NCBI GenBank assembly: GCA_020073345.1
Contig: JAIQFI010000001.1
Span: 62,001-126,000 of the forward strand
Source of the DNA: Terriglobia bacterium
GTDB lineage: Bacteria; Acidobacteriota; Terriglobia; Bryobacterales; Bryobacteraceae
DNA: 64,000 nt
Direction: 5' to 3'
Shown one piece after another: positions 10,966 to 64,000 of the stretch; position 1 is the first letter of the stretch, and every line of letters starts with the position of its first letter. Below the pieces are notes generated by a model, which saw nothing but the letters and a program-made list of their open reading frames with translations, did not search any database and was not told the DNA's origin. The position numbers were made by a program, and so were the translations under genes.

Positions 10966-11703
10966 CTACTTAAACATCTTGAAGAGTCCGCCCAGTGGAT
11001 CGTAGAACTCATCCACCACGCGCTCTTTGAGCGGAATAATCGCGTTATCCGTAATCTTAATCTCTTCCGGACAGACCTTGGTGCAGCACTTGGTGATGTT
11101 GCAGTACCCGATATTGTAGTCGTCCTTCAAAGCTTTTAAACGATCGCCAGTATCAAGGGGATTCATCTCCAGTTGCGCGGCGTGGATCAGGAATCGCGGA
11201 CCGATGAACTTGTCATGCAGGTTGTGATCGCGCAAAACGTGACACACGTCCTGGCACAGGAAGCACTCGATACACTTCCGGAATTCTTGCGGACGATCGA
11301 CGTCGGCCTGCTGCACCCGCCAGGTCCCGTCCGGAGCGTCGGGCTTGCGTGGCGTGAATTTCTGGATCTTTTTCTTGACTTCGTAGTTCCAGGAAACGTC
11401 TGTGACCAGATCCTTGACGTGCGGGAACGTCTTCATCGGCTCCACGGTAACGGCTTGCGTCAGGTCGAGCTGGTTCAGGCGCGTCATGCACATCAGGCGA
11501 GGTTTGCCGTTGATCTCGGCCGAGCACGATCCGCACTTCCCCGCCTTGCAGTTCCAACGCACGGCCATGTCGTTGGCCTGCGCCGCCTGGATTTTATGCA
11601 CTACGTCCAGAACCACCATGCCGGCTTCGTACTCGGTAGTGTAGTCGACGAACTTTCCTGAGCCTCTTTCTCCGCGCCAGATTTGGAACGTGGCACTTGC
11701 CAT
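10966..11703 (-). CDS. sdhB: Succinate dehydrogenase iron-sulfur subunit
   Basis: 245 residues. Carries electrons from SdhA to the membrane. Clusters visible: [2Fe-2S] in CKAGKCGSC...C (about 52-72), [4Fe-4S] in CIECFLCQDVC, and [3Fe-4S]/third cluster in CNITKCCTKVCP. Last gene of the leftward anchor-A-B operon; its start overlaps the sdhA stop by one base (TAATG). The presence of a membrane subunit of the single-anchor type points to the Sdh1-like complex described in mycobacteria. Confidence 0.95.
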   Translation of the reverse strand: MASATFQIWRGERGSGKFVDYTTEYEAGMVVLDVVHKIQAAQANDMAVRWNCKAGKCGSCSAEINGKPRLMCMTRLNQLDLTQAVTVEPMKTFPHVKDLVTDVSWNYEVKKKIQKFTPRKPDAPDGTWRVQQADVDRPQEFRKCIECFLCQDVCHVLRDHNLHDKFIGPRFLIHAAQLEMNPLDTGDRLKALKDDYNIGYCNITKCCTKVCPEEIKITDNAIIPLKERVVDEFYDPLGGLFKMFK

Positions 11704-13517
11704 TATTTTTGTTCCTCAATGCACTTCTTCATCTCGTCGGTCAGCGGGCCCACAAGCATCCGCTCGACCTTCGGCCTTCCATCCGGGCCTTTGGTGATCT
11801 TCAGATTGTATTTGCCCCACTCGTCACTCTTCGCCGGATAGTCATCCCGGAAATGCGCCCCGCGGCTCTCCTTGCGTTCGATGCCTGCGATGGCCACGAT
11901 CTCGGAAATCGCCAGCAGATTGTCCAGATCGAGCGCAGTGTGCCAGCCGGTGTTGTACTCGCGGTTCCCGCCGATACCAGCGCGGGCCGCGCGAGCCTGC
12001 AACTTGGGGATCTCCGACAGCGCCTGCTGCATCTCCTGCTCCACGCGCACGATCCCCACCAGCTTTTGCATCATCTCCTGCAATTCGTGCTGGACGGCGA
12101 AGGGGTTCTCGCCCGCCGTGCCACGATCGAACGGTGCGACCGCGCGTTTCGCGGCGGCATCGACATCGGCTGGGTTGATTTTTCCACCTCCGTTTTCCTT
12201 AGCGAACTTTGCGGCAAACTCACCGGCGCGCTTGCCGAACACCAATAGGTCGGAGAGGGAGTTGCCGCCCAGGCGATTCGCACCGTGCAATCCCGCCGCG
12301 CATTCGCCCGCCGCGAACAACCCGGGGACCGCCGACATCTGAGTATCCCCATCCACCTGGACCCCACCCATCATGTAATGCGTGGTCGGCCCGATTTCCA
12401 TGGGCTCCTTCGTGATGTCCAGATCCGCCAGCTGCTTGAACTGGTGATACATGCTCGGCAGCTTCTTCTTGATGTGCTCGGCCGCGTTGGGAAGCTTTTC
12501 CTTGATCCAGGCGATGTCTAGGAACACACCGCCGTGCGGGCTGCCGCGGCCAGCTTTGACTTCGCGATTGATACAGCGGGCCACGTGATCGCGGGTCAGC
12601 AGCTCCGGCGGACGCAGCGCGTTCTTATCGCCCTGCGTGTAACGCCAGCCCTCATCCGGATCTTTGGCGGTCTGGCCGCGGTAGTTCTCCGGAATATCGT
12701 CGAACATGAACCGCTTGCCGTCTTTGTTGCGCAACACGCCGCCTTCGCCACGGACGCTCTCGGTCACCAGAATCCCTTTGACGCTGGGCGGCCAGACCAT
12801 CCCCGTGGGATGAAACTGGACAAACTCCATATCGAGCAGTGCCGCGCCCGCCTGATACGCCAGCGCCTGGCCGTCCGCGGTGTACTCCCAGCTATTACTG
12901 GTGATCTGGAAGGCACGGCCGATTCCACCGGTCGCCAAGACCACGGCCTTGGCATGAAAGAGGTGAAACCTCCCTTTTTCGCGGTCGTAGCCAAACGCAC
13001 CGACGACGCGTTCGCCGTCCTTAAGCAGTGTGAGTATGGTGTACTCGGCATGCACCTCGATACCTTGATGGATGCCGTGATCCTGTAGCGTCCGAATCAT
13101 CTCAAGCCCGGTGCGGTCGCCCACGTGCGCCAGGCGCGCATAACGGTGGCCGCCAAAATTGCGCTGAAGAATTTTGCCGTCCTTAGTGCGGTCGAAGATC
13201 GCTCCCCAGGCTTCGAGTTCTTTCACTCGCGCGGGAGCTTCCTTGGCGTGCAGCTCCGCCATCCGGCAGTTGTTGAGATATTGCCCGCCGCGCATGGTGT
13301 CGGCGAAGTGGACGCGCCAGTTGTCGCGATCATCCACGTTGCCCATGGCCGCCGCCATGCCGCCTTCGGCCATCACCGTGTGCGCCTTGCCCAGCAGCGA
13401 TTTCGTCACCACACCGGTCTTCGCACCCGCGGCAGAAGACTCGATCGCCGCGCGCAAGCCGGCGCCGCCCGCGCCGATTACCAGGACGTCGTATTCGTGA
13501 ACCGGATAGTCCGCCAC
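11703..13517 (-). CDS. sdhA: Succinate dehydrogenase flavoprotein subunit
   Basis: 604 residues. Oxidises succinate to fumarate using FAD in the TCA cycle. FAD-binding GAGGAGLRAA near the N-terminus, the conserved histidine for covalent flavin in KAHTVMAEGG (about 43-52), and the substrate site region HVGDRTG and RCINREVKAGRGSPHGG. Length fits SdhA. It starts one base after the anchor stop and shares a base with the sdhB start, so the three subunits are translationally coupled. Confidence 0.96.
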   Translation of the reverse strand: MADYPVHEYDVLVIGAGGAGLRAAIESSAAGAKTGVVTKSLLGKAHTVMAEGGMAAAMGNVDDRDNWRVHFADTMRGGQYLNNCRMAELHAKEAPARVKELEAWGAIFDRTKDGKILQRNFGGHRYARLAHVGDRTGLEMIRTLQDHGIHQGIEVHAEYTILTLLKDGERVVGAFGYDREKGRFHLFHAKAVVLATGGIGRAFQITSNSWEYTADGQALAYQAGAALLDMEFVQFHPTGMVWPPSVKGILVTESVRGEGGVLRNKDGKRFMFDDIPENYRGQTAKDPDEGWRYTQGDKNALRPPELLTRDHVARCINREVKAGRGSPHGGVFLDIAWIKEKLPNAAEHIKKKLPSMYHQFKQLADLDITKEPMEIGPTTHYMMGGVQVDGDTQMSAVPGLFAAGECAAGLHGANRLGGNSLSDLLVFGKRAGEFAAKFAKENGGGKINPADVDAAAKRAVAPFDRGTAGENPFAVQHELQEMMQKLVGIVRVEQEMQQALSEIPKLQARAARAGIGGNREYNTGWHTALDLDNLLAISEIVAIAGIERKESRGAHFRDDYPAKSDEWGKYNLKITKGPDGRPKVERMLVGPLTDEMKKCIEEQK

Positions 13518-53137: not shown

Positions 53138-54181
53138 GTGCGGAAACTCGCGCTCCTGATGTCGGCGGTGGTGCTGGTATCGTGCGAGCGCGCCACCCCG
53201 AGCAGTACCGGCACACCGGCGGCAGCTTCGATTGGAGCTGGGGCTCCGGAGTCTTCGCACGGCCAACGTGAAATCCGGCTAACCGGAGCGGTGGAAGCGG
53301 TGCATTCCTCCAAGGTCGTGGTGCCTCAGCTCACCGGCCAAAACAACCAGATGACGCTGACAGCGTTGATTCCGAATGGCTCGCGGGTGAAAGAGGGCGA
53401 CCCGATTGCCGAGTTCGATCCGACGGCGGAACTGGACCGCGCGCGCGACGCCAAAGCCAAGTACGAAGACCTGGGCCATCAGGTGGACCAAAAGGTCGCC
53501 TCGAATCGCGCCGACGCTGAACGTCGTCAGTCGGATCTCAAGCAAGCCGAAGCGGATCTGGGGAAGGCGCTGCTGGACGTGGAAAAAGCTCCGATCCTGG
53601 CGGAAATCATCAAGCTGCAAAACGAAGTGAAGGCGGGAGTCGCGCGAGAGCACGTGGAGAGTCTTAAAAAATCCAATGCGCTTCACGACAAATCCGACGC
53701 GGCCGCCCTGCGCATTCTGGAATTGCAGCGCGACCGGCAGAAAGTAGCTCTCGAACGGGCCCAAGGCAATCTGGACAAGCTCCGCGTTAAGGCGCCATTG
53801 GGCGGGATGGTGGCGCACGCCAACGTGTACCGCAATGGCTCCATGACGCACGCCCAGGAAGGCGACCAGATGTACCGCGGCAACGCTCTGGTGAGCATTT
53901 TCGATCCATCCGAGATGCAAGTGCGCTGCGCCGTGGGGGAGCCGGATGGTGTGGTTCTGGTGAAAGGAACTCGCGCGACAGTCTACCTGGACGCCTATCC
54001 CGATCTGGTGCTGAGTGCGCACTTTGAATACTCGAGCCCCATCGCGACCAGCGCGCTGAGCAGCCCTATCAAATCGTTCACGGCCGTTTTCAAACTTGAC
54101 AAAGCCGATCCGCACCTGATGCCCGATCTTTCCGCTGCCGTGGTCATCCAGCCGAGAGCCGGAGACGGGAGCGCAAAGTGA
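53138..54181 (+). CDS. Lipoprotein HlyD/RND-type adaptor (first of three)
   Basis: 347 residues, GTG start with a strong aaggagg ribosome site. Lipoprotein signal: LALLMSAVVLVSCER (Cys in VSC). Typical periplasmic adaptor: barrel-hybrid start (RLTGAVEAVHSSKVVVPQL), a long coiled-coil hairpin (about 100-215), second half of lipoyl domain (KAPLGGMVAHANVYRNGS), and beta-barrel (ATVYLDAYPDLVLSAHFEYS). Starts a run of four genes overlapping head to tail. Confidence 0.86.
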   Translation: MRKLALLMSAVVLVSCERATPSSTGTPAAASIGAGAPESSHGQREIRLTGAVEAVHSSKVVVPQLTGQNNQMTLTALIPNGSRVKEGDPIAEFDPTAELDRARDAKAKYEDLGHQVDQKVASNRADAERRQSDLKQAEADLGKALLDVEKAPILAEIIKLQNEVKAGVAREHVESLKKSNALHDKSDAAALRILELQRDRQKVALERAQGNLDKLRVKAPLGGMVAHANVYRNGSMTHAQEGDQMYRGNALVSIFDPSEMQVRCAVGEPDGVVLVKGTRATVYLDAYPDLVLSAHFEYSSPIATSALSSPIKSFTAVFKLDKADPHLMPDLSAAVVIQPRAGDGSAK

Positions 54182-55416
54182 CGATGCGCTCCCGGCTGAT
54201 GTTCGCCGTGGTGGGCGTGCCCGCGCTGGTCGGCGGCGGATGGGTGGGGGTTTCGCGCTTCCGCCAGGCGCAGACAACGAGCGATCTGCCGGTCGCCCCC
54301 GCGAGGAAGGGCGAATTTCTGGCCATTATCCGCTGCCGGGGCGAAATCAAAGCAGGCCGGTCGGCGCAGCTGTACGCTCCCATCGTTCCGAATCTGCGCA
54401 TCGCCTGGCTGGCCCCTTCCGGAGAGGTTGTGGAGGAAGGCGCTCCAGTCATTCGCTTCGACTCGAGCAGCGCGCAGCAGCAGTTGATCCAAAAGGAAGC
54501 AGCGCTGCGGCAGAGCCAGGCCACGCTCGATCAGGCCGTGGCCCAGGGACGCATCACCGCTGAGCAGGATCAGAGCACTCTCCGCGAGGCGCGATTCAAT
54601 CTCGAAAAAGCGCAGCTCCGCACCGCCACCAACGAATTTGTCGGCCGCATCGAAGCGGAGCAAAACCGCATCGACGTGGGCGTGTCGGAGCAAAAACTCA
54701 AGGTGCAAGAGGCAACGGTGGAACAGCACGCCGCGTCTGACAAATCTAAGATGGCCTCCCTCACCAGGCAGCGCGATCAGGCCCAGGCCGACGTCGATAT
54801 CACCAAGGAGCGCCTTACCCAGATGGAGATCAAAGCGCCGCTCACCGGAGTGGTGGTCTTTCAATCCAACTACGCTCTGGGCAGCGTGAACGCAACACCG
54901 TTCAAGGTCGGGGACAATGTGTATTCCGGAATGAACCTGGGCGAGATCCCGGACATGACGTCGTTGCTGATTGACGTCAAAGTAGAGGAGATCGACCGGG
55001 GGCGCATCGCCGTGGGTGACGATGTGCGCATCCTGGTGGACGCGCTGCCGGAGCTTGCCATTCAGGCCAAGATGACGCAGATTTCGCCGATGATGGAACT
55101 GGGCCTGGAACAGCCGATCACGCGCAGTTTCCGCGCCTACGCGGCCGTGGCGAAAGCCGACGCGCGTCTGCGCCCCGGCATGAACGGCGGCATGGACATC
55201 GTCGTCAACCGTATTCCGGATGCGATCAGTATTCCCGCCAAGGCCCTGTTCACGCGTGCGGGCAAGCCGGTGGTCTTCCTCGCCGAGCGGGGCGCCTATC
55301 GGCTAGCCGAGGTTCAGGTGCTGGCGCGTAATCCGGATGAAGTGGCCATATCGGGCATACCCGCGGGGGCGTTGGTGGCTTTGACCGACCCTGAGAAAGC
55401 AACCACCAAGAAATGA
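54178..55416 (+). CDS. HlyD-family adaptor (second of three)
   Basis: 412 residues, GTG start overlapping the previous gene by 4 bases; an in-frame ATG two codons later (54184) could be used. N-terminal membrane anchor (about 5-23), FLAIIRCRGEIKAGRSAQLY lipoyl half, coiled-coil (about 95-215), second lipoyl half KAPLTGVVVFQSNY, barrel with MRPGMNGGMD-type segment and C-terminal KALFTRAGKPVVFLAERGAYR. Same fold as the neighbours but a distinct sequence, so not a recent duplicate. Confidence 0.86.
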   Translation: MTMRSRLMFAVVGVPALVGGGWVGVSRFRQAQTTSDLPVAPARKGEFLAIIRCRGEIKAGRSAQLYAPIVPNLRIAWLAPSGEVVEEGAPVIRFDSSSAQQQLIQKEAALRQSQATLDQAVAQGRITAEQDQSTLREARFNLEKAQLRTATNEFVGRIEAEQNRIDVGVSEQKLKVQEATVEQHAASDKSKMASLTRQRDQAQADVDITKERLTQMEIKAPLTGVVVFQSNYALGSVNATPFKVGDNVYSGMNLGEIPDMTSLLIDVKVEEIDRGRIAVGDDVRILVDALPELAIQAKMTQISPMMELGLEQPITRSFRAYAAVAKADARLRPGMNGGMDIVVNRIPDAISIPAKALFTRAGKPVVFLAERGAYRLAEVQVLARNPDEVAISGIPAGALVALTDPEKATTKK

Positions 55417-56696
55417 AAGCACGGTTCCTCATCGCGGTCGTCGTGGTGGCGGTACTCGGCGGGGCCGGCTGGGGCGTCCGGCGCATCATCCAGGTGGCCA
55501 CGGCGAGTACGACCAACGTGATCCCGACCACGCACGTAAAGAAGGGGCGCGTCACCATCACGGTCTCCGCGCGCGGCGAGTTGCAAGGCGGCAACTCGGA
55601 GATTCTAACAGCTCCCATGACCGGTGGTCAGGATATGGCGATCACATCTTTGCGCGATACGGGGGAGCTGGTGAATCCCGGCGACACCATCGTTCAGTTC
55701 GATACCACCCAGCAGGAATACAATCTGCGCGAGGCGGAAGCCGATCTGGCCGAGGCCGAGCAGCAAGTGATGAAGGCGGAAGCCGATGGCCAGGCCTCGC
55801 TCGAGGAAGCGCGCTATCAGACTATTTCCACGGCGGCGGACGTGAAAACGGCCGAGCTGGAGGTCCGCAAGAATCCCATGCTCGCGACGATTTCCGCCCG
55901 CCAGAACGATATCTCGCTCGAATCCGCCAAGAACCGCCAGCAGCAGGCCGAGCGGGACCTAAAGAACCTGCAGGCCACTTCCGGGGCGGGCGTCGCCATT
56001 CAACGAGCCAACGAAAGCAAAGCCAAGCTGATGGCCGACATGGCCCGGCGCACCATCGAAAGCATGACGCTCAAGGCCAAGACCGGTGGTTACGTCAACG
56101 TGCAGCAGAACACCAACCAGAACCTGATGTATTCCGGAATGACGCTGCCGCAGTTCCAGAACGGCGATACCGCGCGCGCCGGCCAATCGGTCGCCCAGAT
56201 TCCCGACATGAGTAACTGGGAAGTGGTCTCCAGCATTCAAGAGCTCGACCGCGGATACCTGAGCCCGGACCAGAAAGTGACCGTCCATGCAGCGGCGCTG
56301 GCCGGACGTGAATTTCGCGGCCACATAAAAGCCCTGGGCGGCACCTCCGGAAACGCGTGGAACCGCCGGTTCGAGTGCCGCGTCGCACTGGACGAAACCG
56401 GACCCGAGCTGCGCCCGGGAATGAGCGTGAACCTTCAGATCACGGTCGAATCGCTGGATAACGTGTTGTGGCTGCCTTCGCAGGCGTTGTTTGAGCGCGA
56501 CGGGCATGCCTTCGTTTATCTGAAGACGCCCCAGGGTGTCACACCCAAGGACGTCACGCTGGTCCGGCGCGGCGAAAGCCAGGCCGTCATCACCGGGCTC
56601 AACGAAGGCGATGAGGTCTCCCTTTCCAGTCCCGATCAGGACGGCAAGACCGCCGATCCCGGCCAGAGCGGCGTGATGAAGGCACTTCCCAAATGA
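55413..56696 (+). CDS. HlyD-family adaptor (third of three)
   Basis: 427 residues, ATG start overlapping the previous gene by 4 bases. N-terminal anchor (3-22), ITVSARGELQGGNSEILTAP, a long coiled coil rich in Glu/Ala/Lys (about 95-205), YVNVQQNTNQNLMYSGM, barrel IPDMSNWEVVSSIQELDRGY, and the C-terminal MacA-like portion PGMSVNLQITVESLDNVLWL. The final permease gene starts inside its stop. Similar adaptors in MacAB systems form hexamers with the permease. Confidence 0.86.
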   Translation: MKARFLIAVVVVAVLGGAGWGVRRIIQVATASTTNVIPTTHVKKGRVTITVSARGELQGGNSEILTAPMTGGQDMAITSLRDTGELVNPGDTIVQFDTTQQEYNLREAEADLAEAEQQVMKAEADGQASLEEARYQTISTAADVKTAELEVRKNPMLATISARQNDISLESAKNRQQQAERDLKNLQATSGAGVAIQRANESKAKLMADMARRTIESMTLKAKTGGYVNVQQNTNQNLMYSGMTLPQFQNGDTARAGQSVAQIPDMSNWEVVSSIQELDRGYLSPDQKVTVHAAALAGREFRGHIKALGGTSGNAWNRRFECRVALDETGPELRPGMSVNLQITVESLDNVLWLPSQALFERDGHAFVYLKTPQGVTPKDVTLVRRGESQAVITGLNEGDEVSLSSPDQDGKTADPGQSGVMKALPK

Positions 56697-57937
56697 TCCT
56701 GCTTTCCGACATCGGACAGGCGTTCGGCAACCTGCGCGCGCAGAAGACGCGCACGTTTCTCACCGCAATCGGAATCGTGTTCGGCGTGGGCTCGGTGATC
56801 GGAATGATGGCCATCGGATCGGGCGCCAAGGAAGAATCGCTCCGCTTTATCGAGCAGTTAGGCGTGCGCAACATCCTGATCGACTCGCGCCAAGCCACCA
56901 GTCCTCAGGAGTACCAGCAGCGCCGCCGCTCCTCGCCCGGCCTGACCGAGCGCGACATGCGCATCCTAAGCGCCAACGTGGATGCGATCGAGATGATGTC
57001 GGCCCGGCGCACCCTGCGCCCTGTGCGCGTGCTGCCCAAACCTTCCCGTGACTTGCCCGATCTGTACGGAGTCCGCCCGTCCTATGCTCCCATCCACAGC
57101 CTGCGTTTCGCAGAGGGCGGCTTCTTCGACGACGGCGACGACGATCGCAGCGCTCCGGTGTGCGTGTTGGGCGAGACCGCCAAGGTCAGCCTGCTCGGCT
57201 ATGACCCTGCGCTCGGCAAATCCGTCAAGATTAACGACACCTGGCTCGAAGTGGTGGGCGTGCTCAAGGAGCAGCTGATGGCCGGCTCGCAATCGAGCGG
57301 CGGCAGCATGCAGGACATCAACAACATCGTGTACATCCCGCTGAACACCTTCCAATACCGCTATTGGGATACCGGAGCGAATATGAAAGACGACGTGGAG
57401 GGCATCGAGCTGCGGCTGCGTCCTGAGGCGAATAGCATCGAGGTCGCCAAGGTCGTGACCGCTGTGCTCAATTCCACGCATCGCAACACCCAGGACTTCA
57501 CGGTGACGATTCCGGCCGCGCTGCTCGCCCAGCAGCAGCGCACGCAGACCATCTTCACCTACGTGATGGTGGCGATCGCGGCTATTTCGCTGCTAGTGGG
57601 CGGTATCGGCATCATGAACATCGTCCTGGCGACCGTGTTGGAGCGGACGCGCGAGATCGGCATCCGCCGGTCCGTCGGTGCTCGAAGATTGGATATCGTG
57701 CGGCAATTCCTGACCGAGTCCGTTCTGATTTCCGCGGGCGGCGGCTTGCTGGGGATCGGGTTCGGGTTCTTCCTGGCGTGGCTGATCGCGCGGACAGCCG
57801 AGTGGAGGACCATTGTGACCACGGTGTCGGTAGTCGTGGCGTTCGGGGTGTCGGTGGCGGTGGGCGTACTATTCGGCGTGTACCCGGCCGTAAAGGCGTC
57901 GCGCATTAATCCAATCGAAGCCCTGCGGTACGAATAG
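56693..57937 (+). CDS. MacB/FtsX-type ABC transporter permease
   Basis: 414 residues. One membrane segment near the start (about 17-45: RTFLTAIGIVFGVGSVIGMM), a large periplasmic MacB_PCD domain (about 45-275), and an FtsX-type domain with three membrane segments near the end (about 290-400): AIAAISLLVGGIGIMNIVLA, TREIGIRRSVGAR, FLTESVLISAGGGLLG. The family needs a separate ATPase; none is found in or next to this operon. Overlaps the third adaptor by 4 bases. Confidence 0.9.
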   Translation: MILLSDIGQAFGNLRAQKTRTFLTAIGIVFGVGSVIGMMAIGSGAKEESLRFIEQLGVRNILIDSRQATSPQEYQQRRRSSPGLTERDMRILSANVDAIEMMSARRTLRPVRVLPKPSRDLPDLYGVRPSYAPIHSLRFAEGGFFDDGDDDRSAPVCVLGETAKVSLLGYDPALGKSVKINDTWLEVVGVLKEQLMAGSQSSGGSMQDINNIVYIPLNTFQYRYWDTGANMKDDVEGIELRLRPEANSIEVAKVVTAVLNSTHRNTQDFTVTIPAALLAQQQRTQTIFTYVMVAIAAISLLVGGIGIMNIVLATVLERTREIGIRRSVGARRLDIVRQFLTESVLISAGGGLLGIGFGFFLAWLIARTAEWRTIVTTVSVVVAFGVSVAVGVLFGVYPAVKASRINPIEALRYE

Positions 57938-58438: not shown

Positions 58439-59449
58439 GTGAAGACTTCGGAAGTTGTAAAAGCCTGGGGCAGGATTTTGAAAGGGGAGCGACCCTCCCT
58501 CTCCATCGAAATCACGCGGGAGTGCCCGCTGCGTTGCCCCGGCTGTTACGCCTACGAGGACGGACATCTGGGCGGCGGCGTGACGCTGCGCGGTCTGCGC
58601 GACCGCAAGGGCCAGGAACTGGTTGATGGCGTATTGGAAGTGGTCGATCGCCTCAGGCCCTTGCATCTGTCGATCGTGGGCGGAGATCCGTTGGTGCGTT
58701 ATCGTGAGCTCGAAACGATGGTTCCTTTATTGTTGGATCGGGGCATTCATGTTCAGCTGGTGACCAGCGCCTTCCGACCGATGGCGCCGGCCTGGGCCAC
58801 TTTACCCCACATGAATATCGTGGTATCGATCGACGGCCTGCAACCCGAACACGACGTCCGGCGCACGCCGGCGACGTATGATCGAATCCTGAAGAATATC
58901 GCGGGCCAAAGGATTACGATCCATTGCACGATTACCGGCCAGATGATGAAGCGGCCAGGTTATTTGCGGGAGTTCCTGGAGTTCTGGCATCCGCGGGACG
59001 AGATCCGCAAAATCTGGTTCAGCCTGTTCACCCCTCAGGTGGGCGATCAGCTCCCCGAGATTCTGGAGCCGCACGAGCGCCGCCAGGCCATCGCGGATAT
59101 GCTCGAGCTACGGAAGCAATTCCCCAAGCTGGACATGCCGGAAGGGTTGATAAAGCAGTTCGCTACACCGCCTCACAGCCCCAAGGATTGCGTGTTCGCC
59201 CTCACCACGCAGACCATCTCGGCCGATCTCGAAACCAGGATCGTTCCCTGCCAGTTCGGCGGCAATCCGGACTGCGCGCAGTGCGGATGTATCGCCTCCA
59301 TGGGACTTGCGGCTGTCGCTGCGCATAAACTAGGAGGATTCATTCCCGTGGGGGCTATCTTCAGGGCATCGGTGAGAATCGGACAGGCTCGGTCCAAGGG
59401 GACTCCGGAACCGCCGGCAATGCAGGAAAGGCTGAGAGTGCTGCCTTAA
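58439..59449 (+). CDS. Radical SAM protein with extra C-terminal cysteines
   Basis: 336 residues, GTG start with aaagga 7 bases upstream. Canonical CPLRCPGC cluster motif (Cys 29, 33, 36) binds [4Fe-4S] and SAM; then IVGGDPLVRY and VSIDGLQPEHDVRRTPATYD, as in PqqE/SPASM-like radical enzymes. C-terminal Cys set in DCVFAL, VPCQFGG and DCAQCGC suggests a second (auxiliary) cluster. Substrate unknown. Its stop and the next ATG/GTG are only 4 bases apart, so it is probably in the same operon as the aldolase. Confidence 0.88.
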   Translation: MKTSEVVKAWGRILKGERPSLSIEITRECPLRCPGCYAYEDGHLGGGVTLRGLRDRKGQELVDGVLEVVDRLRPLHLSIVGGDPLVRYRELETMVPLLLDRGIHVQLVTSAFRPMAPAWATLPHMNIVVSIDGLQPEHDVRRTPATYDRILKNIAGQRITIHCTITGQMMKRPGYLREFLEFWHPRDEIRKIWFSLFTPQVGDQLPEILEPHERRQAIADMLELRKQFPKLDMPEGLIKQFATPPHSPKDCVFALTTQTISADLETRIVPCQFGGNPDCAQCGCIASMGLAAVAAHKLGGFIPVGAIFRASVRIGQARSKGTPEPPAMQERLRVLP

Positions 59450-59459
59450 GAGCGTGCGC

Positions 59460-60488
59460 ATGGAACAGGGTACGATCAAGAACGTTTCGGTGAACGACGA
59501 CCTGGGCCCGCTACTGGACTTGGCGGGACGAGTGGGCCACAATCCCCTGCTCACCCAGGCCAGCACCGGAAACATTTCCCTGAAGCTCGACGGTGTGTTG
59601 TGGATCAAGGCGTCCGGCAAGTGGCTGGCCGATGCGACCGGCGGGAAAATCCTGACTCCCCTGGATCTTGCGGCCGTCCGCGCGAGCATCCGGCAGAATC
59701 TCGATCCGGCGGAACTCTATCCCAACGCGTCCATCGAGACCGCCATGCACGTCACGCTGCCGCACGCGGTGGTTTTGCACGTCCATTCCGTCAACACCAT
59801 CGCCTGGGCAGTTCGGGAAGATGCGGCCAATCAACTGGCGACCCGGTTGGACGGTCTGCGCTGGCAATGGATTCCGTACGTGGCCTCGGGCATTCCGCTC
59901 GCCCGGGAAATTGAGAGAGTTCTAACCGCGCGCCCGGAGACCGACGTGCTAGTGCTGGGAAACCACGGCTTGGTGCTCGGCGGCAAGGACTGCCAGGCAA
60001 CCGAAACTCTCCTGGCCGAAATCGAACGCCGATTGGCGATTCCACCGCGCCAGGCGCACCCGGCGGATTACGCTCTGCTTTCGGAACTCGCCCTGGATTC
60101 CCTTTGGGACTTGCCCGACGACGACGCCATCCACGCTTTGGCGACGGATCCGGTATCGCGGAAGATTCTGGAGGGAGGCTTCCTCTATCCGTGTCAGGCG
60201 ATGTTCTCGGACGCGCGCACACCGGAGTTGTTTCACGCCGCCACAGATACGGTTCCCGATTCGGCGGCGTACGCGGGTCGGCCGTTCGTGATCGTCAAGG
60301 GGCTTGGAGTAGTGCTCAGCCGGACGATGACGCCGGCCGAAATCGCAATGCTCAGCGGCTTGGCACAGGTAGTCCAGCGCATCGATCCTTCAACGCCGCT
60401 TCGCTATCTGACCGAAGGCGAGCTTGCGGAGAGCGCGAGCATCGCAGCTTACCGCTACCGTGAGCTCGCCAACGCGAGCCACGCGTAA
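59460..60488 (+). CDS. Class II aldolase/adducin-family protein
   Basis: 342 residues from ATG 59460 (GTG 59454 is possible). Zinc-dependent aldolase-type fold: STGNISLKLDGVLWIKASG, ASIETAMHVTLPHAVVLHVH with zinc-binding HxH, and LGNHGLVLGG with a third His. Longer than the usual 210-260 residues; the extra C-terminal part (about 240-342) is unlike RhaD or FucA and may belong to the family of short-chain dual-domain sugar aldolases. Substrate not predictable. Lies 121 bases before the ThDP enzyme gene. Confidence 0.82.
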   Translation: MEQGTIKNVSVNDDLGPLLDLAGRVGHNPLLTQASTGNISLKLDGVLWIKASGKWLADATGGKILTPLDLAAVRASIRQNLDPAELYPNASIETAMHVTLPHAVVLHVHSVNTIAWAVREDAANQLATRLDGLRWQWIPYVASGIPLAREIERVLTARPETDVLVLGNHGLVLGGKDCQATETLLAEIERRLAIPPRQAHPADYALLSELALDSLWDLPDDDAIHALATDPVSRKILEGGFLYPCQAMFSDARTPELFHAATDTVPDSAAYAGRPFVIVKGLGVVLSRTMTPAEIAMLSGLAQVVQRIDPSTPLRYLTEGELAESASIAAYRYRELANASHA

Positions 60489-60608: not shown

Positions 60609-62321
60609 ATGGAAACCGCTACCCAACCCGTTACCGATGTGAAAACAGACGCCGCCCCGGAGATGATTTCCGCCGGCCAGATCGTCGCGAAGATGCTGAA
60701 ACAGGAAGGCATCCAGCACATCTTCACCATTTCCGGCGGACACATCGTCGATATTTATAACGGATGCATCGACGAGGGTATCGAGATCGTCGACGTGCGC
60801 CACGAGCAAGTGGCCGCGCACGCGGCTGACGCCTACGCGCGCATCACTGGACTGGGTTGTGCCGTAGTGACGGCCGGTCCGGGCACCACCGACGCCGTGA
60901 CCGGCATGGCGAACGCCTACCGCGCCGAGAGCCCGATGCTCTTGATCGGCGGCAATTCGCCGCTCAAGCAGTACCGCATGGGCGGGCTGCAGGAATTGCG
61001 ACACACGGAAATGATGACGCCCATCAGCAAGTTCGCATCGCTGGTGATGACCACCGAGCGTACCGCGGAAATGATGGGCATAGCGTTTCGTGAGATGTAC
61101 AACGGCGCGCCCGGGCCGGGTTTCCTCGAAATCCCCCACGACGTGATGGACGGCAAGGTGGAGGCGTCGAAAGTTCGCTATCCCAAGAATTACCGCGTGA
61201 AGGGATCCGATGGCGGAGCGCCGGATTTCATCGGCGATCCGAAGATCGTTCAGCAAGTGGCGGATCTGCTCGCCAAGGCCGAGCGTCCCGTGGCATTGTT
61301 CGGCACCCAGGCGCGGACTTGCCGCGCGCATGACGCCATCGACCGTTTTTCAAAGCATTTCAACATTCCGATCTACGTGAATGGATCGGCTCGCGGCACG
61401 CTGCCGCGCGATCATTCGCATGCCTTCATGCCCTCGCGCAAGACCGCGTTCGATAACGCCGATGTGATCCTGCTGGCAGGCACGCCGCTCGATTTCCGCA
61501 TGGGCTACGGCCGCCGCCTCAATCCAAAAGCCAAGATCATCATCATGGACATGGATTATAAGAACGTCGGCAATAACCGCGACTTCGACTTCGGGCTGGT
61601 CGGCAATCTGCGCACGATCGTAGACGCGATGTGTGCGGCATCGCCGGGCGACAAGGCCGGGAAGCACGATCCGTTCCTCAAGATGCTGCGCGAGGACGAG
61701 GCTAAGGCGCAGGGCAAGAACGATAAAATCATCGCCGCCAACGAAGTCCCGATCCATCCGGTACGGCTGTGCCACGAGATCAACGAGTTCCTGCAGGAAG
61801 ACACCGTCTACATCGGCGACGGCGGCGACATCGTCACGTTCTCAGGTTCGATCGTCCGGCCGCACAAACCGGGCGGATGGATGGATCCCGGCCCGCTCGG
61901 CACGCTGGGCGTCGGTACAGGCTTTGCAATGGCATCCAAGCTCGCGCAACCGAAGCGCGACGTGGTGGCGCTGTACGGCGACTGCTCGTTCACGCTGACG
62001 GGATTCGATTTCATCACCATGGTGCATCGGAAATTGCCGTTTGTGGGCGTGATCGGCAACAACTCGTCGTGGAACCAGATCCGGTTTGGCCAGGAGCGCA
62101 AGTATCCGGGCCGCGGCGATATCGGCAACGTGGTGGGCGACGTGCGCTTCGACCACCTTGCGCAGGCCATGGGCGGGTTCGGCATCCGTGTGACCAAGCC
62201 CGAGGACATCCGGCCCGCGCTCGAAAAAGCTCGCGATTCAGGCTTACCGGCGCTGGTGGATGTCGTGATCAACCGCGATGTGTATTCGTCGGGCACGTCG
62301 AACCAGACCATGTACAAGTAG
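60609..62321 (+). CDS. ThDP-dependent decarboxylase/lyase (2-hydroxyacyl-CoA lyase or oxalyl-CoA decarboxylase-like)
   Basis: 570 residues, ATG start with aggaga 7 bases upstream. Three-domain ThDP enzyme: activator Glu66 in VRHEQVAAH, PYR-like N-terminal part with ISGGHIVDIYNGCID, central domain, and ThDP site GDCSFTLTG (457-465) with NN (about 485). The usual GDG is GDC. N-terminal region more like acetolactate synthase than like canonical oxalyl-CoA decarboxylase (which has GVVGIP), but some features (GGNSPLKQYRMGGLQE, RPVALFG) recall 2-hydroxyacyl-CoA lyases. Next gene is Frc. Name is inference; exact reaction open. Confidence 0.75.
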   Translation: METATQPVTDVKTDAAPEMISAGQIVAKMLKQEGIQHIFTISGGHIVDIYNGCIDEGIEIVDVRHEQVAAHAADAYARITGLGCAVVTAGPGTTDAVTGMANAYRAESPMLLIGGNSPLKQYRMGGLQELRHTEMMTPISKFASLVMTTERTAEMMGIAFREMYNGAPGPGFLEIPHDVMDGKVEASKVRYPKNYRVKGSDGGAPDFIGDPKIVQQVADLLAKAERPVALFGTQARTCRAHDAIDRFSKHFNIPIYVNGSARGTLPRDHSHAFMPSRKTAFDNADVILLAGTPLDFRMGYGRRLNPKAKIIIMDMDYKNVGNNRDFDFGLVGNLRTIVDAMCAASPGDKAGKHDPFLKMLREDEAKAQGKNDKIIAANEVPIHPVRLCHEINEFLQEDTVYIGDGGDIVTFSGSIVRPHKPGGWMDPGPLGTLGVGTGFAMASKLAQPKRDVVALYGDCSFTLTGFDFITMVHRKLPFVGVIGNNSSWNQIRFGQERKYPGRGDIGNVVGDVRFDHLAQAMGGFGIRVTKPEDIRPALEKARDSGLPALVDVVINRDVYSSGTSNQTMYK

Positions 62322-62352
62322 TTTTGGGTCGACGAAGGAGACCTACACATAG

Positions 62353-63618
62353 ATGGAAGCACTCAAGGGAGTCCGCATTCTCGACATGACTCACGTGCAG
62401 GCAGGGCCGACGTGCTCGCAGCTGCTGGCGTGGTTGGGAGCGGACGTGATCAAGCTGGAATCGCCCGCCGGCGACGCGACGCGCGGCCAACTGCGCGACG
62501 TGCCCAATGCGGACAGCTTGTACTTCACGATGCTGAACTGCAACAAGCGCTCGATCACGGTCAATATGAAGTCGCCCGACGGCAAGGCGGTATTCGTCGA
62601 GCTGCTGAAAAAGAGCGACATCATCATGGAGAATTTCGGCCCGGGAGTGCTCGACCGGCTCGGATTCCCTTGGGAGAAGATCCACGAAATTAATCCGCGC
62701 GTGGTGATGGGATCGATTAAGGGCTTTGGCTCCTCCGGCCCATATGCGGACTTCAAGGCGTATGAGAATGTGGCGCAGGCCATGGGCGGTGCGATGAGCA
62801 CCACCGGAATCCCCGAAGGTCCGCCGTATGTCACCGGCGCTCAGATCGGCGACACCGGAACCGGCTTGCACCTGGCGATTGGACTCCTGGCCGCGCTGCA
62901 CCAGCGGGATCGCACGGGCGAGGGCCAGTACGTCGAAGTGGCGATGATGGACGGTGTGATGAACCTGTGCCGCGTCAAGTGGCGCGATCACCAGCGTCTG
63001 ACTCGCCAGGAGCTTTCGGAGTATTCGGTCCCGACCAAAGGCCTCACCACCACGCCACGAGCAGGCAACGATTCCGGCGGCGGCCAGCTAGGCAACGCGA
63101 TCAAGTGCAAGCCCGGCGGGCCCAACGACTATATCTACGTAGTGGTTCAGGAAGCGGTGTGGGATGGGCTCGCCAAGCGCATCGGACCCGACGTGGGCCA
63201 GCCGGATCTGGCGACGGATCCGCGCTATCTCAAGATCGGCGACCGGCGCAAGAATCAGAATGACGTTTGGCGGCTACTGGAACAGTTCGCATCGAAGTAC
63301 ACCAAGCGCGAGTTCATGGTGATCTTGAACGATCTGGATGTGCCCTGCGGGCCAATCATGTCTACCGAAGACCTGGCCAACGACGAGCACGTGCGCGGGC
63401 GCGAGATGTACGTCGAGCTCGACCATCCGCAGCGCGGCAAGTGGTTCAACATCGGCATGCCCATCAAGCTGTCGGCGTCTCCTGCGAAAATCGATCGGTC
63501 GCCGACGTTAGGCGAGCATACCGACGAGATCTTGAAAGAGGTCCTCGGGTTGAGCGATGCCGACATTGCGGCCAAGAAAGCGGCGGGCGCGTTTTCGTTG
63601 CCGCCGAAAACCAAATGA
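62353..63618 (+). CDS. frc: Formyl-CoA:oxalate CoA-transferase (class III CoA-transferase)
   Basis: 421 residues, aaggag ribosome site about 13 bases upstream. Highly similar in layout and sequence to Frc: [53 protein letters not shown], and the catalytic Asp in [13 protein letters not shown] (Asp167, equivalent of the Asp in Frc that forms a mixed anhydride). C-terminal part PLLGEHTDEVL-like is seen as [17 protein letters not shown]. Transfers CoA from formyl-CoA to oxalate, which a ThDP decarboxylase then splits. Downstream gene starts in the stop codon. Confidence 0.92.
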
Positions 63619-64000
63619 AGATCGCCATCATCGGCCAGCAGGACTTCGGCAAGGCGGTGCTGGAGGCATTTCTTTCTCGCGGCGATCAGGTCGGCGCGGT
63701 GTTTTGCGCGCCGGAGAAAGAGGGCGCCAGACCCGATGCTTTGCGGGCCGCTGCGCAGGAGAAAGGCCTGAAAGTCCATCAGTTCAAGTCGCTACGGGAT
63801 CCGGAAGCCGCGCGAGCCATGCAGGAATCCGGCGCCGATATCGGCATTATGGCTTTCGTATTGCAGTTCGCGCCCCAGGACTTCGTCACGATTCCAAAGC
63901 ATGGCACGATCCAGTATCATCCGTCGCTGCTGCCGAAATATCGTGGCCCCAGTTCGATCAACTGGCCGATCATCAAGGGCGAGACGGAAACCGGGCTGAC
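63615..64000 (+). CDS. 10-formyl-tetrahydrofolate hydrolase domain (FDH/Fmt-like), cut by window end
   Basis: 128 codons visible, no stop before the window end. Overlaps the Frc stop (ATGA). N-terminal domain closely resembles the hydrolase part of 10-formyl-THF dehydrogenase and methionyl-tRNA formyltransferase: [38 protein letters not shown], and the folate/active-site block [20 protein letters not shown]. The order matches the ALDH1L-type hydrolase more than Fmt. In this context it may remove the formyl group from folate, completing a C1 route. Whether a C-terminal aldehyde-dehydrogenase domain follows is not visible. Confidence 0.85.

Follow-up and report, generated by a model that had tools for sequence, protein, structure and literature searches.

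At the end of the window, the 64,000-nucleotide stretch of acidobacterial DNA analyzed here, a good oxalate-type CoA-transferase stands between a ThDP-dependent enzyme that differs from known oxalyl-CoA decarboxylases (OXC) and a folate-type gene. What reactions could such a combination perform? With a probability of roughly two in three, we read the locus as an oxalate-degradation operon that contains a non-orthologous decarboxylase and a formyl-exchange gene. We infer each reaction, as well as which way the third step runs, as follows. Formyl-CoA:oxalate CoA-transferase (Frc) would move CoA from formyl-CoA to oxalate, generating oxalyl-CoA and formate; the ThDP enzyme would convert oxalyl-CoA to formyl-CoA and CO2; and an OxlT-type antiporter would take up oxalate in exchange for formate. 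The third gene product, FTHFh, together with formate-THF ligase, could turn formate into the formyl-CoA primer or, acting in reverse, could feed formyl groups into folate metabolism.

Genes of the locus

Three open reading frames lie where the preliminary description had placed them. The ThDP-dependent enzyme (60609..62321, + strand, 570 aa) was assigned from its reading frame, its three TPP_enzyme Pfam domains and its membership in a clade with a GTxxQTMY tail. The frc gene (62353..63618, + strand, 421 aa; CoA_transf_3, 2.9e-102) begins 31 nt after the ThDP gene, and the ATG of FTHFh (Formyl_trans_N) overlaps the Frc stop codon (ATGA). FTHFh starts at 63615 on the + strand and is cut by the window end (63615..64000 in the window); sequence of locus L005 extends it to 64547, giving a protein of 310 aa. 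Next after FTHFh, past the window end, is the antiporter gene (64947-66191). Two upstream genes were considered as operon members and dropped: in a scan of 35 loci, L006-L008 also carry the radical SAM gene, and the class II aldolase gene is shared with L007 and L008 only.

Frc passes the curated model TIGR03253 (567.1 bits, cut-off 504.2), and its best PDB match by phmmer is YfdW. The catalytic Asp169 and the neighboring positions Gln17, Tyr139 and Gly259-261 are present in 35/35 rows (one row, L061, is a copy of L029), and Gly258 is replaced by Ser in all 35. The antiporter passes TIGR04259 (382.5 bits, cut-off 335) and falls short of the L-lactate MFS model (304.9, cut-off 320). Its family is close to lactate transporters.

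Family and active site of the ThDP protein

Among the best 25 of 51 NCBIfam rows, the ThDP protein reaches no cut-off: it scores 226.8 bits against TIGR03254 (canonical Oxc, cut-off 739.4), 245.3 against NF006721 (557), 341.5 against NF058623 (actinobacterial 2-hydroxyacyl-CoA lyase, 600) and 284.8 against TIGR00118 (acetolactate synthase, 538.35). Its best row, PRK05858, is named acetolactate synthase (476.4 bits, cut-off 587), which is the one point in favor of an acetolactate synthase gene standing beside frc by accident. We rejected this explanation, which is scarcely credible. In our tree the ThDP protein belongs to a clade of its own (support 100/100), separate from both acetolactate synthases and canonical Oxc; the AU test rejects a grouping of this clade with acetolactate synthases (p 1.05e-6); and the window genome has another ThDP gene (L042), which does group with E. 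coli IlvI and IlvB. Thus the acetolactate-synthase outcome, raised in the preliminary description together with unconserved neighbors, did not occur: the grouping is rejected and the neighboring genes are kept together across phyla, as described below. The PRK05858 protein is presumably the same as a mycobacterial protein that has been assigned a different function. That mycobacterial protein is listed as a putative 2-hydroxyacyl-CoA lyase (HACL) in the available portion of PMC13327070.

The tree contained 29 clade rows hand-picked from ~50 clade loci, with near-copies and partial genes omitted, 27 actinobacterial homologs and three of ten HACL1-like acidobacterial matches; L045 and L048 are absent from it. 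Joining the clade with OXC is rejected as well (AU test, p 3.68e-5, with a warning of long branches from the tree tool), as is joining it with the actinobacterial lyase AcHACL alone (p 0.003), from which several actinobacterial groups separate it. AcHACL is nevertheless the best PDB sequence match of the ThDP protein. A Foldseek search with the predicted ThDP model returned HACL/S in the top rows and OXC first at rank 42; HACL/S, AcHACL and OXC appeared at similar E-values, so the model did not discriminate among them, and its least certain parts (pLDDT below 50), residues 486-496 and 560-570, are the very helix and tail in question.

The OXC active site includes a GIP loop and a Tyr-Glu pair with Tyr120. 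Roles of Glu121, Tyr483 and Ser553 in OXC are given in available portions of PMC8760513 and PMC13327070, and the GIP loop is described in part of PMC11271303. The GIP loop, the Tyr-Glu pair, Tyr483 and the Ser553 region are not kept in the alignment of the ThDP clade, which at these positions has GGHI, LQ, WNQI and a different tail, and Gln, as in lyases, where OXC has Glu. The TIGR03254 score, the site residues and the AU test all place the ThDP protein outside canonical Oxc. Both ISGGHIVDIY and GDC, the motifs highlighted in the preliminary description, are present in the ThDP protein; the GDC variant is real, but the canonical Oxc sequences shown have GDS rather than the GDG with which it had been contrasted. 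Nor does GDC mark a function. In the 38-row clade alignment, which omits L028, L031, L040 (partial) and L061, GDC occurs in 15 rows (13 acidobacterial rows near the window plus L016 and L017) and GDG in the other 23, including acidobacterial L062-L066; being limited to a sublineage, the motif is not diagnostic.

As the residues known from the OXC active site are missing, the main rival function for the ThDP protein is that of a 2-hydroxyacyl-CoA lyase. Frc would then load CoA from formyl-CoA onto a short 2-hydroxyacid, and the ThDP enzyme would split the product into an aldehyde or ketone and formyl-CoA. The matches to AcHACL and HACL/S support this idea, as do retention of the GGHI loop, Thr and Gln (Gln128) of the AcHACL site and an aldehyde dehydrogenase gene near the ThDP gene in two annotated loci (L118 and L120). 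By contrast with AcHACL, however, the acid/base residue responsible for proton transfer in that lyase, Glu493, is Ile in 38/38 aligned clade rows, Gln stands in place of Ile492 and the tail belongs to a different type. According to the available text of PMC8760513, OXC does without Glu493-type proton transfer; human HACL2, a lyase, likewise has Ile at this position (PMC13327070, Table 1, from the portion available). The genomic partners, namely an oxalate-type Frc, an oxalate-CoA ligase and OxlT, also speak against a lyase, which we consider unlikely.

Gene partners across the clade

The ThDP clade occurs in Acidobacteriota, Pseudomonadota, SAR324, Poribacteria and Actinomycetota. In a survey that omitted L061, 50 clade loci extend more than 600 nt beyond the ThDP gene, and in 46 of them Frc is the next recognized same-strand downstream gene, at a distance of at most 422 nt in 45 loci and 1013 nt in L007. 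This arrangement is not due to chance. None of the partner genes was found in any of ten loci of more distant actinobacterial homologs examined as a control (L126-L135, 6-14 kb each). Three of the four remaining loci with room carry an AAE3-type oxalate-CoA ligase in place of Frc. These three are the basal clade members L037-L039, where a gene for an AMP-forming ligase lies upstream (~1 kb off in L038). The best PDB matches of the L037 ligase are oxalyl-CoA synthetases (542 and 526 bits; first other enzyme, 252), as are those of the L039 ligase (479 and 478 bits; next, 224), and the L038 ligase is 87% identical to that of L037. At L151, neither Frc nor a ligase was found beside the ThDP gene. 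An OxlT-like gene is present in 17 of the 52 loci as fetched (tblastn, 1e-20). Genes annotated as frc and OFA/oxlT neighbor the ThDP gene of Streptomyces fungicidicus and that of Phyllobacterium sp. T1293.

Pairing of one ThDP clade with two unrelated makers of oxalyl-CoA argues for a non-orthologous oxalyl-CoA decarboxylase, a function that we assign from gene partners only and regard as probable. Of the two options proposed initially, a new Oxc clade or an enzyme that makes formyl-CoA from another 2-hydroxyacyl-CoA, the partnership with either Frc or an AAE3-type oxalate-CoA ligase favors the former. Like the canonical Oxc/Frc operons of E. coli (yfdWU), Oxalobacter formigenes and C. necator (frc-oxc), the locus combines an Frc of the same curated family, an oxalate/formate antiporter and a ThDP partner; in contrast to them, its ThDP enzyme scores below the Oxc cut-off and lacks the OXC site residues examined, and a folate-type third gene is added. 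A C. necator H16 strain without frc-oxc fails to grow on oxalate (PMC7486775). There are also parallels with the plant and fungal pathway of AAE3, OXC, formyl-CoA hydrolase and formate dehydrogenase, as three clade members use an AAE3-like ligase and formate dehydrogenase-like genes occur in some clade loci. Here, however, most members use Frc, and the ThDP enzyme belongs to a clade other than that of canonical bacterial OXC (plant OXC lies outside our tree).

The third gene and the fate of formyl-CoA

FTHFh is a separate protein related to the N-terminal (hydrolase) domain of 10-formyl-THF dehydrogenase (FDH): its best PDB match is 1s3i (6.8e-57), and it falls below the cut-off for methionyl-tRNA formyltransferase (TIGR00460, 150.9 bits against 201.5). 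Four other Formyl_trans_N genes are present in the window genome. H102 and D138 of FTHFh, invariant in 17/17 rows, align with the catalytic His and Asp of FDH. In these respects FTHFh resembles the N-terminal domains of ALDH1L1/FDH and HypX; unlike them, it stands alone in an oxalate-type operon, and its 310 aa, followed by the antiporter gene, contain no aldehyde dehydrogenase, carrier or decarbonylase domain. HypX has been proposed to move a formyl group from 10-formyl-THF to CoA (PMC6802093, available portion).

FTHFh and an ADP-forming acyl-CoA synthetase were not found together in any of 52 loci, and the tree forces at least two switches between them; L120 is labeled as synthetase type there, although its synthetase lies upstream in the opposite orientation and a sucC-like gene takes the third place. 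Formate-THF ligase is present in nine loci, none of which has the synthetase. These two patterns support the folate role suggested earlier for the third gene. There are variations. First, in Ferrovum (G300) FTHFh is present and formate-THF ligase was not found there. Second, the synthetase-type genomes G277 and G041 have an FTHFh homolog elsewhere (311 and 302 bits), and in L033 FTHFh is ~56 kb away. Finally, none of the searched genes directly follows Frc in L016, L033 or L152.

Because formyl-CoA is needed only as a catalyst in the Frc cycle, formyl exchange between CoA and THF is the most likely task of the third gene, a role to which we give even odds. A plain hydrolase, which would free formate either from formyl-CoA (the orphan activity EC 3.1.2.10) or from 10-formyl-THF and would pass no formyl group from one carrier to the other, is less probable, at perhaps half that weight. 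The nearest solved relatives of FTHFh are indeed hydrolase domains, and formyl-CoA hydrolase is described as an activity without an identified gene in available parts of PMC10192776 and PMC9090294. Formate is already freed by Frc, however, and the CoA primer would be lost through hydrolysis; moreover, that FTHFh alternates with an ADP-forming CoA ligase and pairs with formate-THF ligase suggests a part in making formyl-CoA. The whole pathway might instead run in the synthetic direction, from formate through 10-formyl-THF to formyl-CoA. The ThDP enzyme would then join this formyl-CoA to an aldehyde, yielding a 2-hydroxyacyl-CoA in a natural elongation by one carbon. Formate-THF ligase and FTHFh do share a cluster, and related enzymes perform this condensation (PMC11271303, available portion), but OxlT and the oxalate-CoA ligase would go unexplained, making this direction very improbable.

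More broadly, and more tentatively than for formyl exchange itself, we propose that oxalyl-CoA decarboxylation may have evolved twice in the ThDP superfamily, that this second family may be responsible for oxalate degradation in lineages lacking canonical Oxc, and that its usual third gene may encode a formyl-CoA:tetrahydrofolate formyltransferase linking the CoA and folate pools, which with formate-THF ligase could constitute a two-enzyme, ADP-forming formyl-CoA synthetase. In the literature searched, from which subscription papers were outside the scope, we found no description of the ThDP clade or of the three-gene combination (available portions of PMC10192776, PMC12927642, PMC12188714, PMC9090294 and PMC7486775 contain none). 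If the proposal is correct, there are several implications. First, surveys of oxalate degraders based on oxc would miss this family, as the two annotated records, from S. fungicidicus and Phyllobacterium, name the protein by its cofactor only (‘thiamine pyrophosphate-binding protein’). Second, it would reveal a possible route to oxalate use, independent of canonical Oxc, in some soil Acidobacteriota. Third, it would assign a gene to the fate of formyl-CoA, a step so far without one according to the portions of PMC10192776 and PMC9090294 available. Finally, a formyl-CoA-to-folate transferase, if real, could be useful in synthetic one-carbon pathways.

None of 297 genomes from the window's phylum contains a canonical Oxc that scores above the cut-off, and neither does any of five other clade genomes. 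Sequences of oxc assigned to Acidobacteria are reported in the available part of PMC10192776, so the phylum is not wholly devoid of Oxc-like genes. HACL1-type matches of 520-534 bits occur in 10 of the 297 genomes.

An oxalate-type operon across the window end

We read this operon as a conserved module of the oxalate type. Its ThDP enzyme is not an orthologue of Oxc and is most likely a decarboxylase, and a folate-type gene serves as accessory; no description of such a module was found in the accessible portions of the open-licence literature. The three genes named in the preliminary description are all present as open reading frames on a 343-kb contig of the 6.23-Mb genome: a ThDP enzyme (60609–62321, plus strand), a formyl-CoA:oxalate CoA-transferase (Frc; 62353–63618, plus strand) 31 nt further on, and a third gene (63615–64547, plus strand; 310 amino acids) whose start codon (ATG, 63615) overlaps the stop of Frc. 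In 19 kb read across the window end, within which the third gene finishes, an MFS gene (64947–66191) follows after 399 nt, and then a thioredoxin reductase gene.

Frc exceeds the cut-off of the curated model TIGR03253 (567.1 versus 504.2), and its top PDB match by phmmer is E. coli YfdW, followed by the Oxalobacter enzyme; the catalytic Asp and further residues of the active site are conserved in all 35 aligned Frc rows, one of them a copy. The MFS protein passes TIGR04259, the oxalate/formate antiporter model (382.5 versus 335), with an oxalate:formate antiporter as top PDB match by phmmer. For the third protein (FTHFh) the best match is to 10-formyl-THF dehydrogenase, in its hydrolase domain (FDH; 1s3i, 6.8e-57). 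Methionyl-tRNA formyltransferase matches at 4.1e-36, and the protein is below that family's cut-off. Its YHPSLLP and GLD motifs, whose His and Asp are catalytic in FDH, are invariant across 17 aligned rows.

Radical SAM and class II aldolase/adducin-type genes lie directly upstream on the same strand (58439–60488). The former recurs only in scan loci L006–L008 and the latter only in L007–L008, all close relatives, and we therefore exclude both from the module. Further upstream (53138–57937), three consecutive HlyD-type periplasmic adaptor-like reading frames, followed by a MacB-type permease-like one, apparently form an export operon, judging from their translations.

Placement and active site of the ThDP enzyme

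The module would work like Oxc–Frc, but its ThDP enzyme lies outside the Oxc family as curated. Among the best 25 of 51 NCBIfam rows the protein is below every cut-off, scoring 227 of 739 and 245 of 557 against Oxc models, 476 bits against PRK05858 ‘acetolactate synthase’ (cut-off 587) and 341 bits against the actinobacterial 2-hydroxyacyl-CoA lyase (HACL) model (cut-off 600); its top PDB sequence match is AcHACL, an actinobacterial HACL. In a 74-row tree, the 29 rows of its clade form a single group (support 100/100), canonical OXC groups with HACL1-type enzymes, and acetolactate synthases (ALS) lie outside. In AU tests, a common group of the clade with ALS (p 1.05e-6), with OXC (p 3.68e-5) or with AcHACL alone (p 0.003) is rejected; long branches are flagged, above all PoxB and AcHACL. 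The phylogeny against Oxc, HACL and ALS that had been proposed earlier thus yields a separate clade.

Among named relatives in the contig scan, the nearest are Bryobacterales and Bryobacteraceae MAGs (95–98% identity in the ThDP protein), on which ground we take the source genome to be acidobacterial. Because the acidobacterial rows near the window nest within betaproteobacterial rows, the tree suggests transfer; the nearest betaproteobacterial row, L016, is a MAG contig for which a binning error is possible.

The active site differs from that of OXC at several positions. The clade has GGHI where OXC has GIP, and Leu-Gln where OXC has Tyr-Glu; HACL and acetohydroxyacid synthase also have Gln at the Glu position, as tabulated in PMC13327070 (Table 1). 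NNSSWNQIR aligns with NNRAWNIER of AcHACL (the aligned chain being an E493A mutant) and NNGGIY of OXC. Because 2-hydroxyacyl-CoA cleavage requires a proton transfer by Glu493 that oxalyl-CoA decarboxylation can do without (PMC8760513), loss of this Glu is compatible with a decarboxylase, while proving none; human HACL2 has Ile there (PMC13327070, Table 1). A clade-specific C-terminal tail, GTxNQTMYK, has G, T, Q, T, M and Y invariant in the 29 aligned rows and N and K nearly so, and its pattern occurs in none of the 27 actinobacterial homologues placed in the tree. GDC is present in 15 of 38 aligned clade rows.

Neighbourhood and distribution of the clade

The scan (35 loci), extended with whole-genome and plasmid-record loci, gave 52 clade loci after L061, a copy of L029, was dropped; with several near-copies among the Ferrovum and Bryobacterales loci, the 52 do not all represent independent events. 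Where more than 600 nt follow the ThDP gene (50 loci), Frc is the next recognised same-strand gene in 46. An oxalate/formate antiporter (OxlT)-like gene occurs in 17 of the 52 as fetched. None of ten control loci of more distant actinobacterial homologues (L126–L135, 6–14 kb each) shows any searched partner.

Of the four exceptions, L037, L038 and L039 are basal in the clade and carry an AMP-forming ligase upstream of the ThDP gene. The top PDB matches of the L037 ligase are oxalyl-CoA synthetases (541.9, 526.3 and 475.6 bits; first other enzyme, 251.9), as also for L039 (479.1 and 478.2; 224.5); the closest NCBIfam model to both is FadD7, scored under its cut-off. At the fourth, L151, the ThDP gene lies beside formate dehydrogenase-like and OxlT-like genes, and neither Frc nor ligase was found in the locus as searched. 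Its genome, G668, has two equal-scoring clade ThDP genes ~16 kb apart, one of them covered by L151 (G668:C1:2345000-2364000).

In annotated records of Streptomyces fungicidicus and Phyllobacterium sp. T1293, frc, OFA/oxlT, sucCD-like and acetate-CoA ligase family genes lie beside the ThDP gene, and each record has an aldehyde dehydrogenase gene nearby. Phyllobacterium additionally has a 2-dehydropantoate reductase-like gene, an annotation family to which C. necator ApbA2 also belongs. ApbA2 has been proposed to act as a CoA-acylating glyoxylate dehydrogenase, and growth on oxalate is impaired without it (PMC7486775). The sucCD-like genes, which recur adjoining the operon in L118, L120, L121, L122, L124 and L125 (Actinomycetota, Pseudomonadota), may provide or consume a further CoA ester. 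CoA-transferase/ThDP pairing is not exclusive to oxalate-like clusters, because on a Bosea sp. F3-2 plasmid (L123 4696–7644) a CoA-transferase gene precedes that of a still more distant ThDP protein (34% identity), in a cluster with MmgE/PrpD-type genes and without oxalate marks. L018, from a MAG titled Bordetella parapertussis, has the operon at 82% identity to the window, the same as betaproteobacterial L019, and its species label looks doubtful.

In phylum-wide searches, which covered genome samples and scored only the best candidates per genome, canonical Oxc (TIGR03254) was over cut-off in 0 of 297 genomes of the window's phylum, 6 of 198 Actinomycetota and none of five clade genomes (those behind L017, L025, L033, L037 and L039). 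HACL1-type matches of 520–534 bits in 10 of the 297, and oxc sequences assigned to Acidobacteria (PMC10192776), count against a clean absence. The three actinobacterial genomes with clade-level matches (G297, which is the source of L039; G429; and G462) are not among that set's seven with a strong Oxc match. At E 1e-150 the clade was found in 7 of the 297, the window's genome among them, and Frc is the next gene in every case; at E 1e-140 it was found in 4 of 398 genomes from the phylum of G301, counting G301 itself. Within the window's genus, G289 has a copy and the ThDP gene has no match in G187 at E 1e-150; the operon therefore seems patchy even there.

The third gene and supply of formyl-CoA

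Among 39 loci with more than 1200 nt after Frc, 24 have FTHFh as the first searched gene within 500 nt, 10 an ADP-forming acyl-CoA synthetase, one a sucC-like gene, one a PanE-like gene and three none. FTHFh and synthetase were found together at none of the 52 loci, and their labels on the ThDP tree (15 and 8 rows) require at least two switches. This exclusion is incomplete genome-wide, because synthetase-type G277 and G041 hold an FTHFh homologue elsewhere (311 and 302 bits). Nine loci have formate-THF ligase, after FTHFh (L032, L035, L040, L065, L066) or before the ThDP gene (L009, L011, L018, L019), and synthetase was found in none of them; the L065 protein passes PRK13505 (929 versus 652), and the other eight were called by tblastn to it. 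The window's genome encodes this ligase elsewhere, on contig C24; genome searches did not find it in Ferrovum G300, G277, G297, G298 or G429.

Formyl-CoA in the Frc cycle would serve only as CoA carrier, needing priming and replenishment. Formate-THF ligase plus a formyl-THF:CoA transferase would convert formate, ATP and CoA to formyl-CoA, ADP and Pi, the net reaction of an ADP-forming synthetase acting on formate. Because the net reactions are the same, two equivalent routes to formyl-CoA would be the simplest reading of the alternation. The transferase role is supported by what has been proposed for FDH and HypX, namely that they move the formyl group of 10-formyl-THF onto the thiol of a phosphopantetheine or of CoA (HypX: PMC6802093). 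Alternatively, the third step could run in reverse, or the synthetase might act on oxalate. In alphaproteobacterial MAG locus L033, FTHFh lies not beside Frc but ~56 kb away in its genome; downstream of Frc (10988–12156) are a sulfopyruvate decarboxylase alpha-like gene and an adjoining reading frame, possibly another ThDP pair.
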